Program-made: the position numbers and the translations under genes
Virus record (IMG/VR): IMGVR_UViG_3300034407_004293
Location: 1 to 30,815 of that record
Length of the DNA: 30,815 bases
Source of the DNA: a virus
Strand: one strand, 5' to 3'
The notes under the pieces: model-generated
What the model was told of the DNA's origin: nothing
The model's input: only the letters and a program-made list of their open reading frames with translations
Database searches by the model: none
Part shown: in pieces, positions 6,020-13,398 of the stretch
Layout: every line of letters starts with the position of its first letter
How positions within the stretch are numbered: position 1 is the first letter of the stretch

Positions 6020-8155
6020 CTACACATAGAGTGCATTCCTCTGGTTAATGTTATCAATAACCGCACTAGCAAACTTCTTAGAATCCATATAGAGATGAAT
6101 CTCGCCGCTACCACCTGATGAGCCGTTTGTTGCGTTGACTGCTCGGGCTGCGGGTGGAACGACATTCGCCCTCATCATTTCATTGTTTGTTACATAAGCA
6201 CCCCGAGGAATATTTAATATCTCTGGTCCCTGCTCACCAACCATAACTGGTCCACCTGGGGCAAAGCCGCCCTGCTGCAACCCTAATAGTTCTTTGGCAA
6301 AGAACCCTGCGCCAGCACCAAGGACGCCGCCGACGGCAGTGCCGATGGGACCCAAAAACGACCCCAGCTTCGCACCAGCGATACCGCCGGCTATCGCAGT
6401 GCCACCTCTAGCAGCACCAAGACCTTCACCTGCCACTGTTCTCAAACCTTTCATGATAGCCGCCCCCACCAATTCAAGCGTTGGTCCCATTCTTTTGATA
6501 GCTCCCTCAAAGTCACCTGTTATGATCAATCCAAATATTTCTTTTAGACTGTGTAAAAACCCACCCTCTGCCGTAGCCTTGTTAAACATCTCCAACAAAG
6601 ATGGTATTGCAGTATTTGCTAAATAATCAATACCAGCAATTAGATAATCTGAGACGACCTCTGATATCCCTACTAATGTCTCACCAAAAGAACCAGCACT
6701 GCCACCGGTCATGTCCATCAATGGTAAAACTTTTTCTTCTAAAACTTTACCAATATGGGTAATAACATTTCCGAGTGGCGCAAAGATTCTTTTTGATAGC
6801 TCAAAATAAACTTTTGATATATTGTCTGACCTCTGTAGTAGCGGTGTCAACACTCTTGTGCCCAAGTCTATAAGACTAGTCACCAACGGACTCACATCAA
6901 GAACCATTTTTTGGAAGAAGCCTTTAATTTTATCCATAAGAGAAAGATAATCCTTACCTCTCTTCTCTGCTTCTTCCCTTTCCATCCTCTCTGTCTCAAA
7001 GGCTTCTTTGCTCTGACTTAAACGACTTAGTTCTGCGACCTCTAGTCCAGTAATACCAGCCAGGTTTCTCTTCTGAAATTTACTTAACTGATCGAACTGG
7101 ACGCCCTGTGCCTTTAGATTATCCATAACAGCCATAGCACGATCCGTCTCACTCATCTTCATAAGTTCTATCGTATTAAGTTGCGTTCCGAACGTGGCAT
7201 TTAATTTAGACACCACGTCCGATGCCGAGTCGTAGTCCTCAAACTTATCAGAGAAAGCCAACAAAGATTCGGCATTAACGCCAAATTGTCTACCCAACTT
7301 CTGGAACTCTAAAGAAGTTCCCAATGCCCTTGGTCCCAACTCTGCCAAAGATTTTGACATCCCCAGTGTCGCTCTTCCCAACGCTCCTGGGTCCATCCCC
7401 ATGTTCTTAGCGGTGCCAAGAATTGTCATAGAAAAATCTTCTACTTCCTTTATTCCGCCACCAAAAGTCCCTACGATCTGGTCTATAGCCTCAGTTGTTG
7501 TTGTGGCATCAATACCAAGCTGACTCACATCCGCAGCGAGATCAATAGCTGACTTACGAAATCCTGATGATTCTCTCTGGAAGAAAGCAAAGTTATCATT
7601 CATTGTTCCAACTAGCTGCGCTGCTTGTTCTGTGGTGCCGCCAAATAAAGCTAGCTCTCTCTTAGCAAAGGTAAGCTCCTCGGTGAAAGCCATCGCACCA
7701 CCAGTGGCTTTTCTAAATTCCTGTGATTGTTTTTCTATCTCTAGGGTCGCTGTAATTATGTTACCAACAAAATCGGAGACTACAGCCTTAACACCCTCGT
7801 AAGCTCCCTGTAGTGCTCGGATGCGTCTGATAGCTCCTGCATGTCTTTTCTTAGCTTTCTTTTCTTCAGCGTCTTGAAATTCAGCCACCTCAGTGTTAAA
7901 GGCTTTCTGCTCAGCTTCAGCCTGCTTCCTAAGAGCATCAATCTCTGCTTGGATCTTTTTAGTATCGTCTCCCCTCTTTTTAGCTTCTTCAAGGGCTATC
8001 TTTTCTGCCTCGATACGAGAGTTTAAACCTTGGAGTTCAATTTGCAGTTGCTCTTCCCTTTCTGCAAATGCCTCTTTAGTTTTTTTAGCAATATCGGCGA
8101 GAGCTTCTTCTAGCAGTCGCTTTCGTTCTTCTACTGATTCTTCAAAAGTAGCCAA
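6020..8155 (-). CDS. Tail tape measure protein
   Basis: The 711 residues begin with a strongly charged coiled coil (about 1-110, Glu/Lys/Ala-rich), followed by a helical body with TLEIEKQSQEFRKATGG. A Gly/Ala-rich hydrophobic stretch lies at about 585-640, and the C-terminal signature GGPVMVGEQGPEILNIPRGA is common in tape measure proteins. The protein fixes tail length and sits inside the tube; at about 1.5 angstrom per residue it predicts a tail near 100 nm. The start codon is TTG: the next in-frame upstream codons reach a stop, and GGAG lies nine to ten bases before the TTG. It follows the tail chaperone region, the usual place for a tape measure gene. Confidence 0.88.
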   Translation of the reverse strand: MATFEESVEERKRLLEEALADIAKKTKEAFAEREEQLQIELQGLNSRIEAEKIALEEAKKRGDDTKKIQAEIDALRKQAEAEQKAFNTEVAEFQDAEEKKAKKRHAGAIRRIRALQGAYEGVKAVVSDFVGNIITATLEIEKQSQEFRKATGGAMAFTEELTFAKRELALFGGTTEQAAQLVGTMNDNFAFFQRESSGFRKSAIDLAADVSQLGIDATTTTEAIDQIVGTFGGGIKEVEDFSMTILGTAKNMGMDPGALGRATLGMSKSLAELGPRALGTSLEFQKLGRQFGVNAESLLAFSDKFEDYDSASDVVSKLNATFGTQLNTIELMKMSETDRAMAVMDNLKAQGVQFDQLSKFQKRNLAGITGLEVAELSRLSQSKEAFETERMEREEAEKRGKDYLSLMDKIKGFFQKMVLDVSPLVTSLIDLGTRVLTPLLQRSDNISKVYFELSKRIFAPLGNVITHIGKVLEEKVLPLMDMTGGSAGSFGETLVGISEVVSDYLIAGIDYLANTAIPSLLEMFNKATAEGGFLHSLKEIFGLIITGDFEGAIKRMGPTLELVGAAIMKGLRTVAGEGLGAARGGTAIAGGIAGAKLGSFLGPIGTAVGGVLGAGAGFFAKELLGLQQGGFAPGGPVMVGEQGPEILNIPRGAYVTNNEMMRANVVPPAARAVNATNGSSGGSGEIHLYMDSKKFASAVIDNINQRNALYV

Positions 8156-8174: not shown

Positions 8175-8507
8175 TTATTTAAGAGGCCACGAAATGCCCG
8201 TTTCCTTTTCAAACATTTGGATCGAGCGGTTTAGTTTAGCTCTTTGTTTATAAGTCATTGGACTATCTAAACCGTGTCTCTTAATAGAATCCATATACTT
8301 TTTCTCGCCAATCAAGGCGGAAGTAAATCGATCAACCTGAATCCTGTTGCCAACAACTCTTACTGGTACTCTTGTACCCTTAAACATCTTCTCTAGCAGA
8401 TATTGAATCCAGGCACCAAAGACCTTTAACATGTTCTCGTCAAGCTGATCTTTATTGCCGCTGTCCAGATCAAAAACAAATTCATTAAAGTCAATCATAT
8501 CTTTCAC
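8175..8507 (-). CDS. Small unknown tail-module protein before the tape measure
   Basis: I do not recognise this 110-residue protein. The N-terminus is acidic (about residues 4-25) and the C-terminus is basic and probably helical. The start is GTG at 8507, with GGAGG seven bases upstream; an ATG three codons later is at a less favourable distance. It lies directly after a terminator and a copy of the putative late-promoter element, and 19 bases before the tape measure start, so it probably leads the tape measure transcript. A chaperone or tail-assembly role is possible but not shown by the sequence. Confidence 0.65.
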   Translation of the reverse strand: MKDMIDFNEFVFDLDSGNKDQLDENMLKVFGAWIQYLLEKMFKGTRVPVRVVGNRIQVDRFTSALIGEKKYMDSIKRHGLDSPMTYKQRAKLNRSIQMFEKETGISWPLK

Positions 8508-8552: not shown

Positions 8553-8590
8553 TTAAATAAATACAAAGGGGAACCCTATGGCTCCCCTTT
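8553..8590 (-). terminator. Rho-independent terminator after the tail chaperone
   Basis: An inverted repeat AAAGGGGA (8565-8572) and TCCCCTTT (8583-8590), extended inward by CC/GG across one mismatch, forms a hairpin. On the minus strand it is followed by a U-rich tract (TTTGTATTTATTT). Its first arm overlaps the stop codon of the frameshift extension at 8589-8591. It separates the chaperone unit from the tape measure unit. Confidence 0.65.
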
Positions 8591-8774
8591 ATTTTCTGTT
8601 TACGGCTCGCTTTCTTACTTTGGCAGTTTCCTCGATCTCTTTTTGTAATCTTTTTAGGAACCACCTTCTCAGTTTGATTGGGAGATTATAAGACTCAAAA
8701 AAGCTCCATCCACCATAGTGCTTCAGCAAGAATAACTCTTCGTATACTGATTCAACGTATTCGTTACTCAGGCC
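8589..8774 (-). CDS. Frameshift extension (T-like domain) of the tail assembly chaperone
   Basis: This is the 61-codon continuation reached when ribosomes leave the gp26-like frame at the T7 run at 8775-8781. It begins GLSNEYVESVYEELFLLKHY, continues with GGWSFFESYNLPIKLRRWF, and ends in a Lys/Arg-rich tail. Alternating hydrophobics followed by a LP..LRRWF element resemble the T domain of gpGT-type chaperones (hydrophobic-P-x-x-R-R-W). The reading frame extends upstream to 8855, but only with a TTG or with internal ATGs (8816, 8813) lacking SD sequences, so independent initiation is unlikely. The fusion with residues 1-280 of the upstream frame would be about 341 residues. Confidence 0.7.
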   Translation of the reverse strand, partial: GLSNEYVESVYEELFLLKHYGGWSFFESYNLPIKLRRWFLKRLQKEIEETAKVRKRAVNRK

Positions 8775-9615
8775 AAAAAAACTCCGCACTAAGCGGAATC
8801 TCCATCTCCTCATCATGTCCACAACTATTGCACACGAAGTAATCACTGAGGACAATATCAGGATTCACTTGCTTATATACTTTTCTCATATGCCTAGCAT
8901 CCAATGCTGGCATCAGTTCAACTGCCTTAGCCAGATCAACAGCTTGAGTTGAGCCATTGACGCTGACTAGAATTGATCTTAGCAGGTCGGTCGATTGACT
9001 CTCCGCTAATTTGTGCTTCTTCTTCTGTTGTCTTTGTTTTGTAGCCTTTACTTCATCCCCAGCAGTAAGAAGCCTAAACTCAACAGGGTAACCGCTCTTA
9101 GGTAGAGTGGTCAAGTACAAGCCATCCGCTGAACCTTGGGAAACACCCAGGCTATCTAGGTCTTGTTCTTTGAAGCGAGTGATTCTCTCAATACTATATG
9201 AAACCTCTTCTGCTGCTCCACAAGATGGGCAAACCATTTTTACTTCATACTCGTCCCCATAGCCAGTAACTCTTGCTGCTACCAAAATAGCATTTCTGTC
9301 GCCGATCAATAGATCATTAGCTTTAATTCTTTTGTCAAGAACAAGGCTGTCAACCAACCTATTCAAAGCCATGCCACTTCTCAGTAACGATTGGGACGTT
9401 AAGATATCCTCCTCTTTTGCCGTCATAAAGCGAATCTCTACTTCGTCAACTCCAGCTAAAGGATGAGGGGACTGATAGCTCTTCCCTCCCGATGGCAATT
9501 TAACCATCTCTGTGGGTACTGACCAGTCCATCTGTGCGGTAGGGGTTTGGGTTGGAGCAGGGCTGCTACCCTCATGTAGATCTGGCACGCCCATACGCTC
9601 TTCGTTTCTGCTCAT
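8764..9615 (-). CDS. gp26-like tail assembly chaperone / T4 baseplate family protein, short form
   Basis: The 283-residue protein matches the pattern of the T4 gp26/gp51 family: LPSGGKSY near residues 40-47, EVEIRFMTAKEEDILTSQSL at 58-77, then LLIGDRNAILVAARVTGYG at 102-120. Two CxxC pairs (Cys129/132 and Cys262/265) probably bind zinc. The first ~30 residues are disordered. In contractile phages the gene just before the tape measure is usually a G/GT-type chaperone that coats the tape measure during tail assembly, so I infer that role. The 0-frame ends in EFFWPE, with the FF codons on a seven-T slippery run. The start is ATG with AGGAAAGG upstream. Confidence 0.75.
   Translation of the reverse strand: MSRNEERMGVPDLHEGSSPAPTQTPTAQMDWSVPTEMVKLPSGGKSYQSPHPLAGVDEVEIRFMTAKEEDILTSQSLLRSGMALNRLVDSLVLDKRIKANDLLIGDRNAILVAARVTGYGDEYEVKMVCPSCGAAEEVSYSIERITRFKEQDLDSLGVSQGSADGLYLTTLPKSGYPVEFRLLTAGDEVKATKQRQQKKKHKLAESQSTDLLRSILVSVNGSTQAVDLAKAVELMPALDARHMRKVYKQVNPDIVLSDYFVCNSCGHDEEMEIPLSAEFFWPE
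8772..8785 (-). promoter_or_regulatory. Programmed frameshift site (U7 run behind an internal SD)
   Basis: The mRNA reads GCG GAG TTT TTT TGG CCT GAG TAA in the chaperone frame, with seven T at 8775-8781. The overlapping chaperone extension lies in the +1 (equivalently -2) frame. Moving from TTT at T4-T6 to T5-T7 gives +1; slipping back to T2-T4 gives -2. GGAG sits three bases before the P-site TTT, the same SD-to-slip-codon spacing as in the bacterial prfB +1 site. Confidence 0.6.
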
Positions 9616-9676: not shown

Positions 9677-10237
9677 TTAGACAGTGCCCGCATAGCCAGC
9701 TACTGCGTTACCACTCCTTGTAAGTTCTGCCCAGTCGAACGAGATGTCCACACTAAGTTCTTGCAAGGCGTCATCAGTGTAGTCAAGTCCTTGACCAAAG
9801 GACACCTTCTCAATCCAAGCGTTTTTAAGCTCCCATACTTCAATTTCATTTCCGTCGGCATCAAGCTGTACAATGCGAACAGCGCCACCGATGGCTTCAA
9901 TCGCCGCACCTTTACTTGTGGTACGAATCGCACCGGGACCGGTTGGGTAATCATACCCTGATTTTCTAATGATATTAATAAGAGTTCTAGCAAGATCTGG
10001 GTTGACAGGATCGCCCATAGTGACACTGATAGGAGAGTTCCAAGTAACTCGCCCAGGATACTTAAACGTGTGGTTAAGATATGTGTGCTCCTGTGATGCA
10101 ATGGTTGCCTCTGGTTTAGCCGAAACACCCTTTACTACCCAAACAGGAATTCCACCTAGATAAAAGAAGAACCTATATTTTCTTTTTGGATCTGCCGAAG
10201 CGTCTCCCCAGAAAATTCCTTCACCTGCATTTGCCAT
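9677..10237 (-). CDS. Tail tube protein (gp19-like)
   Basis: This 186-residue protein directly follows the sheath gene, the standard sheath-tube order. It has the tube pattern: KYRFFFYLGGIPVWVVKGVS near the N-terminus, a T(F)KYPGRVTWNSPISVT loop-strand segment around residues 57-74, and a C-terminal strand pair with LKNAWIEKVSFGQGLDY and ELSVDISFDWAEL. Hexameric rings of this protein form the inner tail tube. The length is near T4 gp19 (163). The start is ATG with GGGAG about ten bases upstream. Confidence 0.85.
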   Translation of the reverse strand: MANAGEGIFWGDASADPKRKYRFFFYLGGIPVWVVKGVSAKPEATIASQEHTYLNHTFKYPGRVTWNSPISVTMGDPVNPDLARTLINIIRKSGYDYPTGPGAIRTTSKGAAIEAIGGAVRIVQLDADGNEIEVWELKNAWIEKVSFGQGLDYTDDALQELSVDISFDWAELTRSGNAVAGYAGTV

Positions 10238-10279: not shown

Positions 10280-13200
10280 TTAATCCGCAAACGATGCTCC
10301 AGTATTTGTAATCACGAAGTCGATTGCAAAGAACTCGGCAGTCCGGGTTGGTTTCAACAAAATCTTAGCGTAAATAATGTTTCTATCAACTAAGTCTGGA
10401 GTTGTCGTTGATTCATCCAAAATCAAGCGGAACTCTTCAAGACCGAACCTTGACTGAACGCTCCGAAGAACTGGCTCTGCTTGTCCAATAAATCTGTTCC
10501 ATGTTGACTGAGTATTTTGATCAAACAACATCCGACTTGCGATGAAACTAATTTCTTTCTTGAGGAACACCATCAAGCGGCGAACGTTGATACGGTCAAG
10601 TGCTGATCGAGTTACCTGTAGTGTTTTCTGTCCAAAAATCACAATACCCTCTGCTGGGAACTGTGCGATTGGGTTGATGTTTGCGGCATACAACTCATCT
10701 CTTTCGTCCGAGGTTAGTCGCCTTGAAACATCAAGCACTGGGACGCCGCCGGCACCCTCGGACAACCCACCTCGTGCAAAGCCTGCTGGTGCGTACCAAG
10801 GAGCCCGGACACGATCAGTGAATGAGAACGCACCCAGGGCTGCAACCGAAGGCGGTGCCCAAAGAGCCTGACCGCTAACCGTATCTTGGATGCGAACCCA
10901 AGGATAGTAAGCTGCACCGTAACTGTTGTTAAGTCCTCTTTCACGAAGCGAATCAACCGCCTGCTTGATAGAGAACGAGTTACGATCTTTGTAGCTCTTG
11001 GTGTTTTCACTTTGTGCCTCATAGACCTTCTCAAGATCGATAATGGCAATAGCATCCCCACGATCTTCAGTCACGTCTAGTAGGTAATCGGTTACGCCAG
11101 TGGCAGTAACACCAGGGACAGTGATAACATTAAATTCAACTACCTCTGGGTCTCTCACAATATTGATTGCTCGACGCAAGCTATGAAGTTCATAACTTGT
11201 TTTTTCTGTCGTGCCGATATTTCTATTTGCAAAGGGTTCACGCTCGGTGATGTCCAGCCCATCAAAGCCACCATGTAGACAAGTGGTGAACTGCTTGTAG
11301 TTATTATCCAACACTCGCTTATACGAGGCGGATGCAGCAACGGCAGCAACGATGTTTTGTCCATTTTCGGTTGGCACCTTAGCACCAGCCGTGAAGCTTT
11401 CGTCCGCAGCACGCTTACCACGTCGGTACACAGCCGCATCTGTCGATCCACTAACAGGTCCAACATCATCCAGTGAGAAGCACCACATGTGCTGCAATGG
11501 ACTTGATCCTGCGTTTGTATCTTGACCAATGAAGCCACCATTACGCCCTTGGGCACCTGGCTCTGCGCCAATGTCAAGATTAGTAGTAGGTGAGTTCGAG
11601 TCATTTAGCCCCTGGGCTCTAGATCTTAGAAGATCAATAACCTCTGTGCTAAATCTATTATCCGAAAAGGCTTTACCAGTGTAAGCGCCAAAGTAAATAT
11701 TCTTTGGACTATTAGGGCTGCCGTCGGAAGAACTAATCCGAACTGGCAAGCTTGGCATAACAACTGCTAGTTGTTGGGCTGCTTGCGTCCCTGAAAGAAC
11801 GCCAGCGCCTGCGCCACCAATGTGACCACCGTCAACACCAAACGCTACCTGATCACCACCATCAACCATCACATGGCGACTAGTCGCTCCTGGGTTACTC
11901 AGGGTGCCGAAGCTAGCTGCACCACTAACGATTGCAAAGTCTCTGTACTTAACGGGTCCGAAGACACCAAAGGGCAGATACTCAGGGTTTGTCACCGCAC
12001 GATCAACATCCTCATCCATTACCACACGAATGTAGCGTGACTTGTTTGGATAGTTGCCGTAATTTCGGTTTGCGCCCTCTGAAGTTTGATATTCTACAAA
12101 CTGATCACCGATTTCTCTAGCGATGTATCTTCTAGCCGCAGGATTCAAACTTAGGTTATCAAATCTCTCTAGCACGACTGGTCTGTTGTCATTGTCCGAT
12201 AGACGACGAACAACAACAGAGAACGTGCCATAAGGATCAAAGTCGTTAGTAGGTGCAGTGATGTTAGTAATAGAAATTTTAATTTCTCTTTGCGTGCTTT
12301 CCCCAGCGGAGATAGCTTCAAATCTAAACAGCTTCTGCATGTTCTCTGGCTTGAAGCCAGAAGTATTAGAGCCTAGATCCTGTGAGATGTACCAGCCAGT
12401 TGTAGCCTTAGAAGCTGCTTGGCGGTGATCTGCTTGCTCTTGCTCAGTATTCTGGTCATTACGGAGTGGCATGACAGCGCCCATAAGGGTGCCAGCAGTC
12501 TGCACAGTACCAGTAATCGCCAACTCAGCAAAATCAGTCTGATTAACGTGTCTCTCGAAGGTTTCTCCCAAGAAATAGTTAATGTTTGTAGTAGTCCCAG
12601 GGAACTTAGCCGTTGAGATACCACTGTTTGTTAACGTTGGGTCAGTGTTAAACACCTTGCGAATAAATCTTTCACTGTTGGGGTTAAAGTTGAACCTAAT
12701 CTTGTCAACTTCGCTGCCACCAGCCTTAATACTAGCAATAAACTCGCCATTTGTATCACTCTTGATGAGCGTACAACCACGAGCTTGAGTTTGATGTCCA
12801 GTTCCCGTCGTACCGGAGAGGATGATACGACCACCGGCTGTATCATCGTCTACACAGTAGAAAATAGCAGCTAACGTACCCGTAAGCTGATGAACATTGG
12901 CACCGGTTGTAGGTCCTGAAGCGGATGGCCAAACGAATAGCCCCCAAGCACCACCTTCAGTGTCAGTGGCGCTAATTGATCCAAACTTCCAACCAGCCTT
13001 ACCGCCATTGGCTTCTGTTGCATTGGGGTCCTCTTCGCCCAACAGGCGAACAACGTTTAGAGTAGGATTATTTCTTAACCAGGCTTGTGCAGCATAAGCA
13101 GCGTAGGTTGGCGAAGTCATGTTTCCTTCACGCCAGACATCTCCACTACGACCACCGGGAACCGGTGCCCCGAATACATCAACAAACTCAGCAAAAGACT

Positions 13201-13348
13201 CAACTCTAACTGGAGTCATAGCTGGTCCTTTTTGCATACGACCAATAACTAGGGGTCCAATGTCTCCGGGTTCTCTTGGGATCTCCGAGTTGTCAATCTC
13301 GTTGATGAAAACGCCGGGAGACACAAACTTAAACTTTCTTTCAGCCAT
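10280..13348 (-). CDS. Tail sheath protein (gp18-like), unusually long
   Basis: This is the contractile sheath subunit, 1022 residues from the preferred start. The N-terminus has the classic sheath opening (FVSPGVFINEID, then GDIGPLVIGRMQKGPA, then ESFAEFVDVFG). The C-terminal domain carries GIVIFGQKTLQVTRSALDRI, NVRRLMVFLKKEISFIASRM and the final strand EFFAIDFVIT used in the inter-subunit mesh. T4 gp18 has 659 residues; the extra length lies between roughly residues 130 and 560 and probably forms surface domains. I chose ATG at 13348 (MAERKF) because AGAGGAG lies nine bases upstream; a GTG ten codons earlier would place the SD inside the gene. Confidence 0.92.
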   Translation of the reverse strand: MAERKFKFVSPGVFINEIDNSEIPREPGDIGPLVIGRMQKGPAMTPVRVESFAEFVDVFGAPVPGGRSGDVWREGNMTSPTYAAYAAQAWLRNNPTLNVVRLLGEEDPNATEANGGKAGWKFGSISATDTEGGAWGLFVWPSASGPTTGANVHQLTGTLAAIFYCVDDDTAGGRIILSGTTGTGHQTQARGCTLIKSDTNGEFIASIKAGGSEVDKIRFNFNPNSERFIRKVFNTDPTLTNSGISTAKFPGTTTNINYFLGETFERHVNQTDFAELAITGTVQTAGTLMGAVMPLRNDQNTEQEQADHRQAASKATTGWYISQDLGSNTSGFKPENMQKLFRFEAISAGESTQREIKISITNITAPTNDFDPYGTFSVVVRRLSDNDNRPVVLERFDNLSLNPAARRYIAREIGDQFVEYQTSEGANRNYGNYPNKSRYIRVVMDEDVDRAVTNPEYLPFGVFGPVKYRDFAIVSGAASFGTLSNPGATSRHVMVDGGDQVAFGVDGGHIGGAGAGVLSGTQAAQQLAVVMPSLPVRISSSDGSPNSPKNIYFGAYTGKAFSDNRFSTEVIDLLRSRAQGLNDSNSPTTNLDIGAEPGAQGRNGGFIGQDTNAGSSPLQHMWCFSLDDVGPVSGSTDAAVYRRGKRAADESFTAGAKVPTENGQNIVAAVAASASYKRVLDNNYKQFTTCLHGGFDGLDITEREPFANRNIGTTEKTSYELHSLRRAINIVRDPEVVEFNVITVPGVTATGVTDYLLDVTEDRGDAIAIIDLEKVYEAQSENTKSYKDRNSFSIKQAVDSLRERGLNNSYGAAYYPWVRIQDTVSGQALWAPPSVAALGAFSFTDRVRAPWYAPAGFARGGLSEGAGGVPVLDVSRRLTSDERDELYAANINPIAQFPAEGIVIFGQKTLQVTRSALDRINVRRLMVFLKKEISFIASRMLFDQNTQSTWNRFIGQAEPVLRSVQSRFGLEEFRLILDESTTTPDLVDRNIIYAKILLKPTRTAEFFAIDFVITNTGASFAD

Positions 13349-13374
13349 TAAACTTTTCTCCTCTAAGACGAGTT

Positions 13375-13398
13375 GCACTTAGGCGCAATCGCCAGTGC
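13375..13398 (-). other. Hairpin in the sheath leader
   Basis: GCACT plus GGCG pairs with CGCC plus AGTGC around a CAAT loop, with a two-base bulge. It starts about nine bases downstream of the putative late-promoter element, so it would lie at the 5' end of the sheath mRNA. There is no U tract, so it is not a terminator. A role in mRNA stability is possible. Confidence 0.4.

Follow-up and report, generated by a model that had tools for sequence, protein, structure and literature searches.

Gene content of the locus

The window, that is, the whole 30.8-kb virus record analysed here, carries on its minus strand a myovirus-type structural block that comprises terminase, portal, major head protein, sheath, tube, a gp26-like gene, a 110-aa ORF, and the tape measure. 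The product of the gp26-like gene, hereafter G, contains CxxC zinc-ribbon-like motifs and matches the PF12322 profile with 53.5 bits against a curated cut-off of 24.5. The gene and the overlapping T domain are located between the tube and the tape measure genes (Table 1), which meets the gene-order criterion for G/GT chaperones.

The G ORF terminates with the codons GCG GAG TTT TTT TGG CCT GAG TAA, its stop being three codons beyond a T run. A preliminary description of this DNA had pointed to such a gp26-like frame, overlapped by a second frame of 61 codons, and had deduced that a shift of +1 or -2, not of -1, is needed to pass from one to the other; the ORFs and reading frames of the window bear out both statements. 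Residues 1-280 of G followed by the 61 residues of T give a predicted fusion, GT, of 341 aa. As for the neighbouring genes, the 110-aa ORF (8175-8507), which separates the T domain from the tape measure, has no convincing family match, and in the tail sheath (10280-13378, 1032 aa) the sheath-family match is confined to the C-terminal ~360 residues.

Table 1. Position and supporting evidence of the features discussed in the text (window coordinates)
Feature	Position	Strand	Evidence or remark
Tape measure protein	6020..8155	-	phrog_167 tail length tape measure 7.5e-10; downstream neighbour
Entire open +1 frame	8589..8864	-	No selection in the +1 frame upstream of the T run
T domain, 61 aa, +1 frame (GLSNEY...NRK)	8592..8774, stop 8589-8591	-	Open in 99/99, +1 codon pattern; family resembles DUF6760
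Proposed +1 slip	tRNA-Phe on second TTT (8776-8778), A-site TGG (8773-8775)	-	Proposal
Slippery run TTTTTTT (0 frame TTT TTT TGG)	8775..8781	-	TTT at codon 2 in 99/99 and TGG next in 97/99 representatives
Short hairpin CCGC/GCGG, between GGAGAT and run	8783..8797	-	Complete inner stem in 26/45 group members
GGAGAT, Shine-Dalgarno-like, about 16 nt upstream of run	8798..8803	-	Conserved in the window's group only; role unknown
G product, gp26-family tail assembly chaperone, 283 aa, 0 frame	8764..9615	-	PF12322 T4_baseplate 3.4e-14 (over cut-off); phrog_150 baseplate hub 3.1e-17
Tail tube protein	9677..10237	-	phrog_4542 tail tube 7e-17; upstream neighbour of G

Conservation of the proposed slip site and selection on the two frames

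A scan of IMG/VR with the G protein retrieves 80 loci, 79 of which (40-93% identity) cover the gene to its end, and TTTTTTTGG or TTCTTTTGG is kept in all 79. The identical site is present in a second group of sequences around Microcystis phage Mel-JY01, and the non-redundant set drawn from the two groups comprises 99 representatives less than 90% identical, 45 from the window group and 54 from the second group. Across this set, the first slip codon is TTT in 93 representatives, TTC in 3, and CTT in 3, whereas the second is invariably TTT, compared with 728 of the 995 other Phe codons (73%) in the same genes. The codon that follows the pair is TGG in all but two representatives; these two (L166 and L168) read TTT TTT TAC, indicating that an A-site TGG is not strictly required. 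Among 36 conserved degenerate (synonymous) codon columns, the lowest variability is that of the Phe pair and of CCT (96/96), a fourfold-degenerate Pro codon. A change of the base that follows TGG (CCT to TCT, ACT, or GCT) alters the 0-frame residue and leaves the +1 frame GGN CTN (Gly-Leu) unchanged. The +1 domain itself is intact in every representative, the shortest being 59 aa. As far as sequence comparison can tell, the conservation of the putative slip site is thus confirmed as strong and well beyond chance. The loss of the T run in relatives that keep both frames, which would have refuted the initial proposal, does not occur, for the run is retained wherever both frames are.

Substitution patterns change at the run. 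Before it, substitutions in phases 1/2/3 of the T frame amount to 924/1907/1085, with the maximum at phase 2, equivalent to codon position 3 in the 0 frame; after it, they amount to 4417/1742/9115, with the maximum at phase 3. The second group displays the same phase switch at the run, and the T frame is therefore under protein selection only after this point. Moreover, between the upstream stop and 15 codons into T, the T frame contains no ATG, GTG, or TTG in 25 of the 99 representatives and no ATG in 50, and no start position is common to most of them, which excludes an independent start as a general route to T. This agrees with the earlier remark that the second frame lacks a credible start, and a start of its own, which would have counted against the frameshift had it been found in relatives, is not a conserved feature in the window's two groups. 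The conserved run, the frame switch, and the absence of a conserved start all support the programmed frameshift that had been claimed for this gene.

Elements that may stimulate the proposed slip

In the window, a GGAG is placed three bases ahead of the P-site TTT, an arrangement that had been likened to the geometry of the prfB +1 site. The likeness does not extend to the relatives, since GAG directly precedes the run in only 5 of the 99 representatives and the A site is occupied by TGG in 97, so that the criteria of a prfB-type site (a Shine-Dalgarno element 3 nt upstream of the P-site codon and an A-site stop) are not met. The prfB-like Shine-Dalgarno was rejected as a stimulator because its geometry is not conserved. 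What the window site would share with the E. coli prfB site is the proposed +1 slip with re-pairing on UUU, without the A-site stop codon and without a conserved Shine-Dalgarno element at 3 nt spacing.

The Shine-Dalgarno-like element farther upstream has the consensus GGAG[GA]T in the window's group, where it is found in 89% of the 45 members with a mean duplex energy of about -7.8 kcal/mol, and its Glu codon is fixed as GAG (39/39). Between this element and the run, the CCGN/NCGG hairpin is complete in 26 of 45 members, against a mean of 17 and a maximum of 22 in shuffles, which ignore relatedness, and the CCGC/GCGG stem of the window is a possible stimulator of the slip. Downstream RNA structure was discarded as a stimulator in the +1 groups, its signal being inconsistent (mean z between +0.1 and -0.7). 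Overall, neither the upstream Shine-Dalgarno-like elements nor the downstream RNA structures examined revealed a strong stimulator shared by all relatives.

A related junction with a -1 arrangement in cyanophages

In Kyanoviridae-type cyanophages, the homologous gene (gp26, or annotated gp51) resembles that of the window in its two domains and in its Phe-Phe junction, but T TTT TTC is followed by a T domain in the -1 frame, whereas that of the window is in the +1 frame. The G part of the cyanophage gene ends with TTT TTC after a codon that terminates in T, forming a canonical -1 heptamer in 62 of 62 representatives, and yet TTC is the minority Phe codon in this group (193/701). In 61 of the 62, T occupies an open -1 frame. 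Structured downstream RNA is usual at -1 sites, and in the cyanophages the RNA downstream of the site shows more structure than its shuffled versions (mean z -1.5 to -1.6), in contrast to the +1 groups. The -1 arrangement recurs in the named isolates S-PM2, Ci1, BUCT608, Ah1, K567, S-H34, and Bakedbeans, and also in OLIVR5, PBECO4, and MIJ3, while the two Phe residues are lost in D495, Cygsa01, and Kevin.

Relationship with T4 gp26 and gp51

Profile alignment relates the cyanophage fusion to both T4 families: it matches the gp51 family at 97% (E 1e-10) through both domains, with column shuffles reaching at most 1.6%, and the gp26 family at 98% in its G part only. The gp26 and gp51 families match each other at 98.6%, the window-group fusion matches the cyanophage fusion at 92.7% through the Phe-Phe junction, and the cyanophage T alone matches the C-terminus of gp51 at 89.6% (shuffles at most 1.4%). 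Column-shuffled controls, run for four of the whole-profile comparisons and for the T-only ones, gave a maximum of 5.3%. When the window group is compared directly with T4 gp26 or gp51 by profile, the match is not significant (4% for gp26 alone, and 0.2% for the window T against gp51), and the T4 link consequently runs via the cyanophage group and PF12322.

In T4, gp26 and gp51 are encoded by separate genes on opposite strands. Since gp51 aligns with the complete fusion and gp26 with its first part only, the T4 counterpart of G is gp26 and that of GT is gp51, and, judging from these alignments, T4 appears to possess two genes in place of the frameshift, whereas the window phage would obtain both products from one gene. 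The connection between the gp26/gp51 family and the G/GT chaperones, suggested in the preliminary description, turns out to be stronger than proposed, given that T4 gp51 itself consists of a gp26-like domain and a T-like domain. Neither this kinship nor the functional idea is new, as PF12322 in Pfam already includes both gp26 and gp51, and the annotation of Acinetobacter phage AM101 names both of them 'tape measure protein assembly chaperone'. No description of a gp26/gp51 frameshift was found in the open-access literature, preprints and subscription papers being outside the scope of the search.

G-T frameshifting has been described as widely conserved in long-tailed phages 'except T4' (2016 review, PMC5009743), and gp51 as essential but of unknown function (T4 tail review, PMC3004832). 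We find it reasonably probable that G/GT decoding is ancestral to the tails of the T4 superfamily, with a Phe-Phe junction read by -1 or +1 frameshift, by reinitiation, or, in contractile injection systems, as a permanent fusion, and with T4 carrying the paralogues gp26 (G) and gp51 (GT). Should this be true, T4 would no longer be an exception to the G-T rule, having G and GT as two genes, and the role of gp51 would become directly testable. In addition, some phages would decode one and the same junction by -1 and others by +1, a natural series that could serve to study the evolution of slip direction.

The T domain family, the fold of G, and known chaperone systems

Of 33 T domains from relatives of the window, 21 are matched by the DUF6760 profile (PF20546) at E values up to 1, the best being 9.6e-5; the window's own T domain has no match to it, and no paper using DUF6760 as a term was found in the open-access literature. 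In two Bacteroidota-drawn genomes (L297:859-1623 and L298:859-1623), PF12322 and DUF6760 form one in-frame protein of 255 aa, whose gene directly follows the sheath and gp19-type tube genes and has a Pvc16_N gene nearby. This protein of a contractile injection system thus shares both domains and the place behind sheath and tube with the window's G/GT, but its domains are permanently fused in frame, without frameshift.

Structure models were obtained for G alone and for a T4-type gp51. For the window's G, AlphaFold2 gave a model with a pLDDT of 89.5, which matches numerous viral models of the gp26 family. Compared with solved structures, its residues 21-128 have their three top-ranking matches in 3fgx (Z 6.7), the HK97 tail assembly chaperone (2ob9, Z 5.7), and YqbN (3klu, Z 5.5), which we take to be an XkdN-like phage protein, the next unrelated row being at 3.9; plain Foldseek against 2ob9 gave an E value of 1.2. 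With Z between 5.5 and 6.7, hence below 8, a shared fold is not secure, and the likeness of the modelled N-terminal domain to the HK97 chaperone is suggestive only. The fold search with the gp51 model returned nothing clear (HK97 chaperone at Z 3.7, rank 4 among ties). A sequence search of solved structures yielded prefoldin as the sole match, which was judged to be due to chance.

A simple sequence search found no similarity of the window G/GT to lambda gpG/gpGT, or to the P2 and Mu counterparts. The window further differs from these systems in the CxxC motifs of G and in a proposed +1 slip at UUU_U, as opposed to -1 in lambda and -2 in Mu. A +1 shift is not without precedent in tail chaperones, since the one of the myovirus Halorubrum virus HSTV-2, which has an archaeal host, is thought to use it (PMC5009743).

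Proposed decoding and alternative explanations

In our judgement, this locus very likely encodes a G/GT-type tail assembly chaperone of the gp26 family whose gene is read with a programmed +1 frameshift, the slip and the function being inferred rather than measured. On this best reading, what is new is a +1 version of the known G/GT arrangement in the gp26 family, together with a testable case against the T4 exception. Two proteins would be produced in a set ratio. Most ribosomes would continue to the TAA and release G, while in a fraction of them the P-site tRNA-Phe would move from UUU to the overlapping UUU as the A-site UGG waits; the slipped ribosomes would then read GGC CUG AGU and synthesise GT. 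In the absence of expression data, the efficiency of the slip, the ratio of the products, and the exact +1 step remain inferences. By analogy with lambda G/GT, G would coat the tape measure protein, the T domain would recruit tail tube subunits, and both G and GT would leave before the tail is completed; the chaperone role, the binding to tape measure and tube, and the absence from the virion are likewise inferred.

The identical frame would be reached by a -2 shift, reported for Mu, which would insert one extra Phe (EFFFGLSNE) and for which the seven-T run of the window allows re-pairing. In relatives with TTC TTT TGG (L008, L009, L010, L012, L015, L016, and L019), a +1 slip re-pairs cognately (TTT to TTT), whereas a -2 slip would place the Phe tRNA on TCT, and +1 is preferred for this reason. 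In Flavobacterium phage immuto, whose TTT CTT TGG provides a prfB-type slip at CTT T, a -2 shift would require a Leu tRNA on TTC. The TTT C present at the site in SP-15, Streptococcus GXN1, and Streptomyces BRock is also cognate at +1, and a variable codon 1 (TTT, TTC, CTT) next to an invariant codon 2 is what would be expected for a +1 slip at TTT T. As +1 fits all of these sequences, a -2 shift is quite improbable, and the original alternative of +1 or -2 stands in so far as it dismisses -1 and is narrowed to +1. The two frames could also be joined at the seven-T homopolymer of the window by slippage of RNA polymerase or by a sequencing error, yet both frames are kept in the seven loci listed above, with only four T in a row, and in immuto, with three. 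These short runs argue against polymerase slippage, and an error is ruled out by 99 diverged sequences, which makes this explanation scarcely credible.

T could instead be translated on its own, as a small protein that arises from internal initiation or reinitiation; this is how many gp51 homologues are recorded in phage databases. The cyanophages retain an ATG at T codon 6 in 58 of 62 representatives, so that part of T may be made separately in them; in addition, D495 and Cygsa01, which lack the Phe pair, have a TAATG overlap, and the T of S-SCSM1 is out of the -1 frame. This explanation is contradicted in the window's two groups by the representatives devoid of any start codon and by the lack of a common start position, and it leaves the codon conservation of the T run unexplained; for the gene studied here we regard it as highly improbable. 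Alternatively, the +1 frameshift may be real, and gp26/GT may be a structural component of the baseplate hub rather than a tape measure chaperone, in line with the 'baseplate hub' database label and with the genetic work, cited in the T4 tail review (PMC3004832), that puts gp26 in the hub. The same review, however, lists gp26 and gp51 among the hub assembly chaperones and reports gp51 as absent from the final particle (PMC3004832), the AM101 annotators chose a chaperone name for both proteins, and the position of the gene before the tape measure and the G/GT logic speak against a structural role, which is unlikely although it cannot be dismissed.

Annotation of the T domain in cyanophages

In deposited annotations (L082:4740-4976, L093:3722-3886, and similar), the T domain begins at an upstream or internal start codon, and many genes labelled 'gp51/baseplate hub assembly catalyst' are probably mis-modelled. 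If the frameshift interpretation is true, it suggests that many annotated cyanophage 'gp51' ORFs are truncated gene models. The Synechococcus phage S-SCSM1 (L093, 3699-3886) is the sole cyanophage representative of the 62 with T outside the -1 frame, and this exception may reflect a genuine change to a start of its own or an indel introduced by sequencing.
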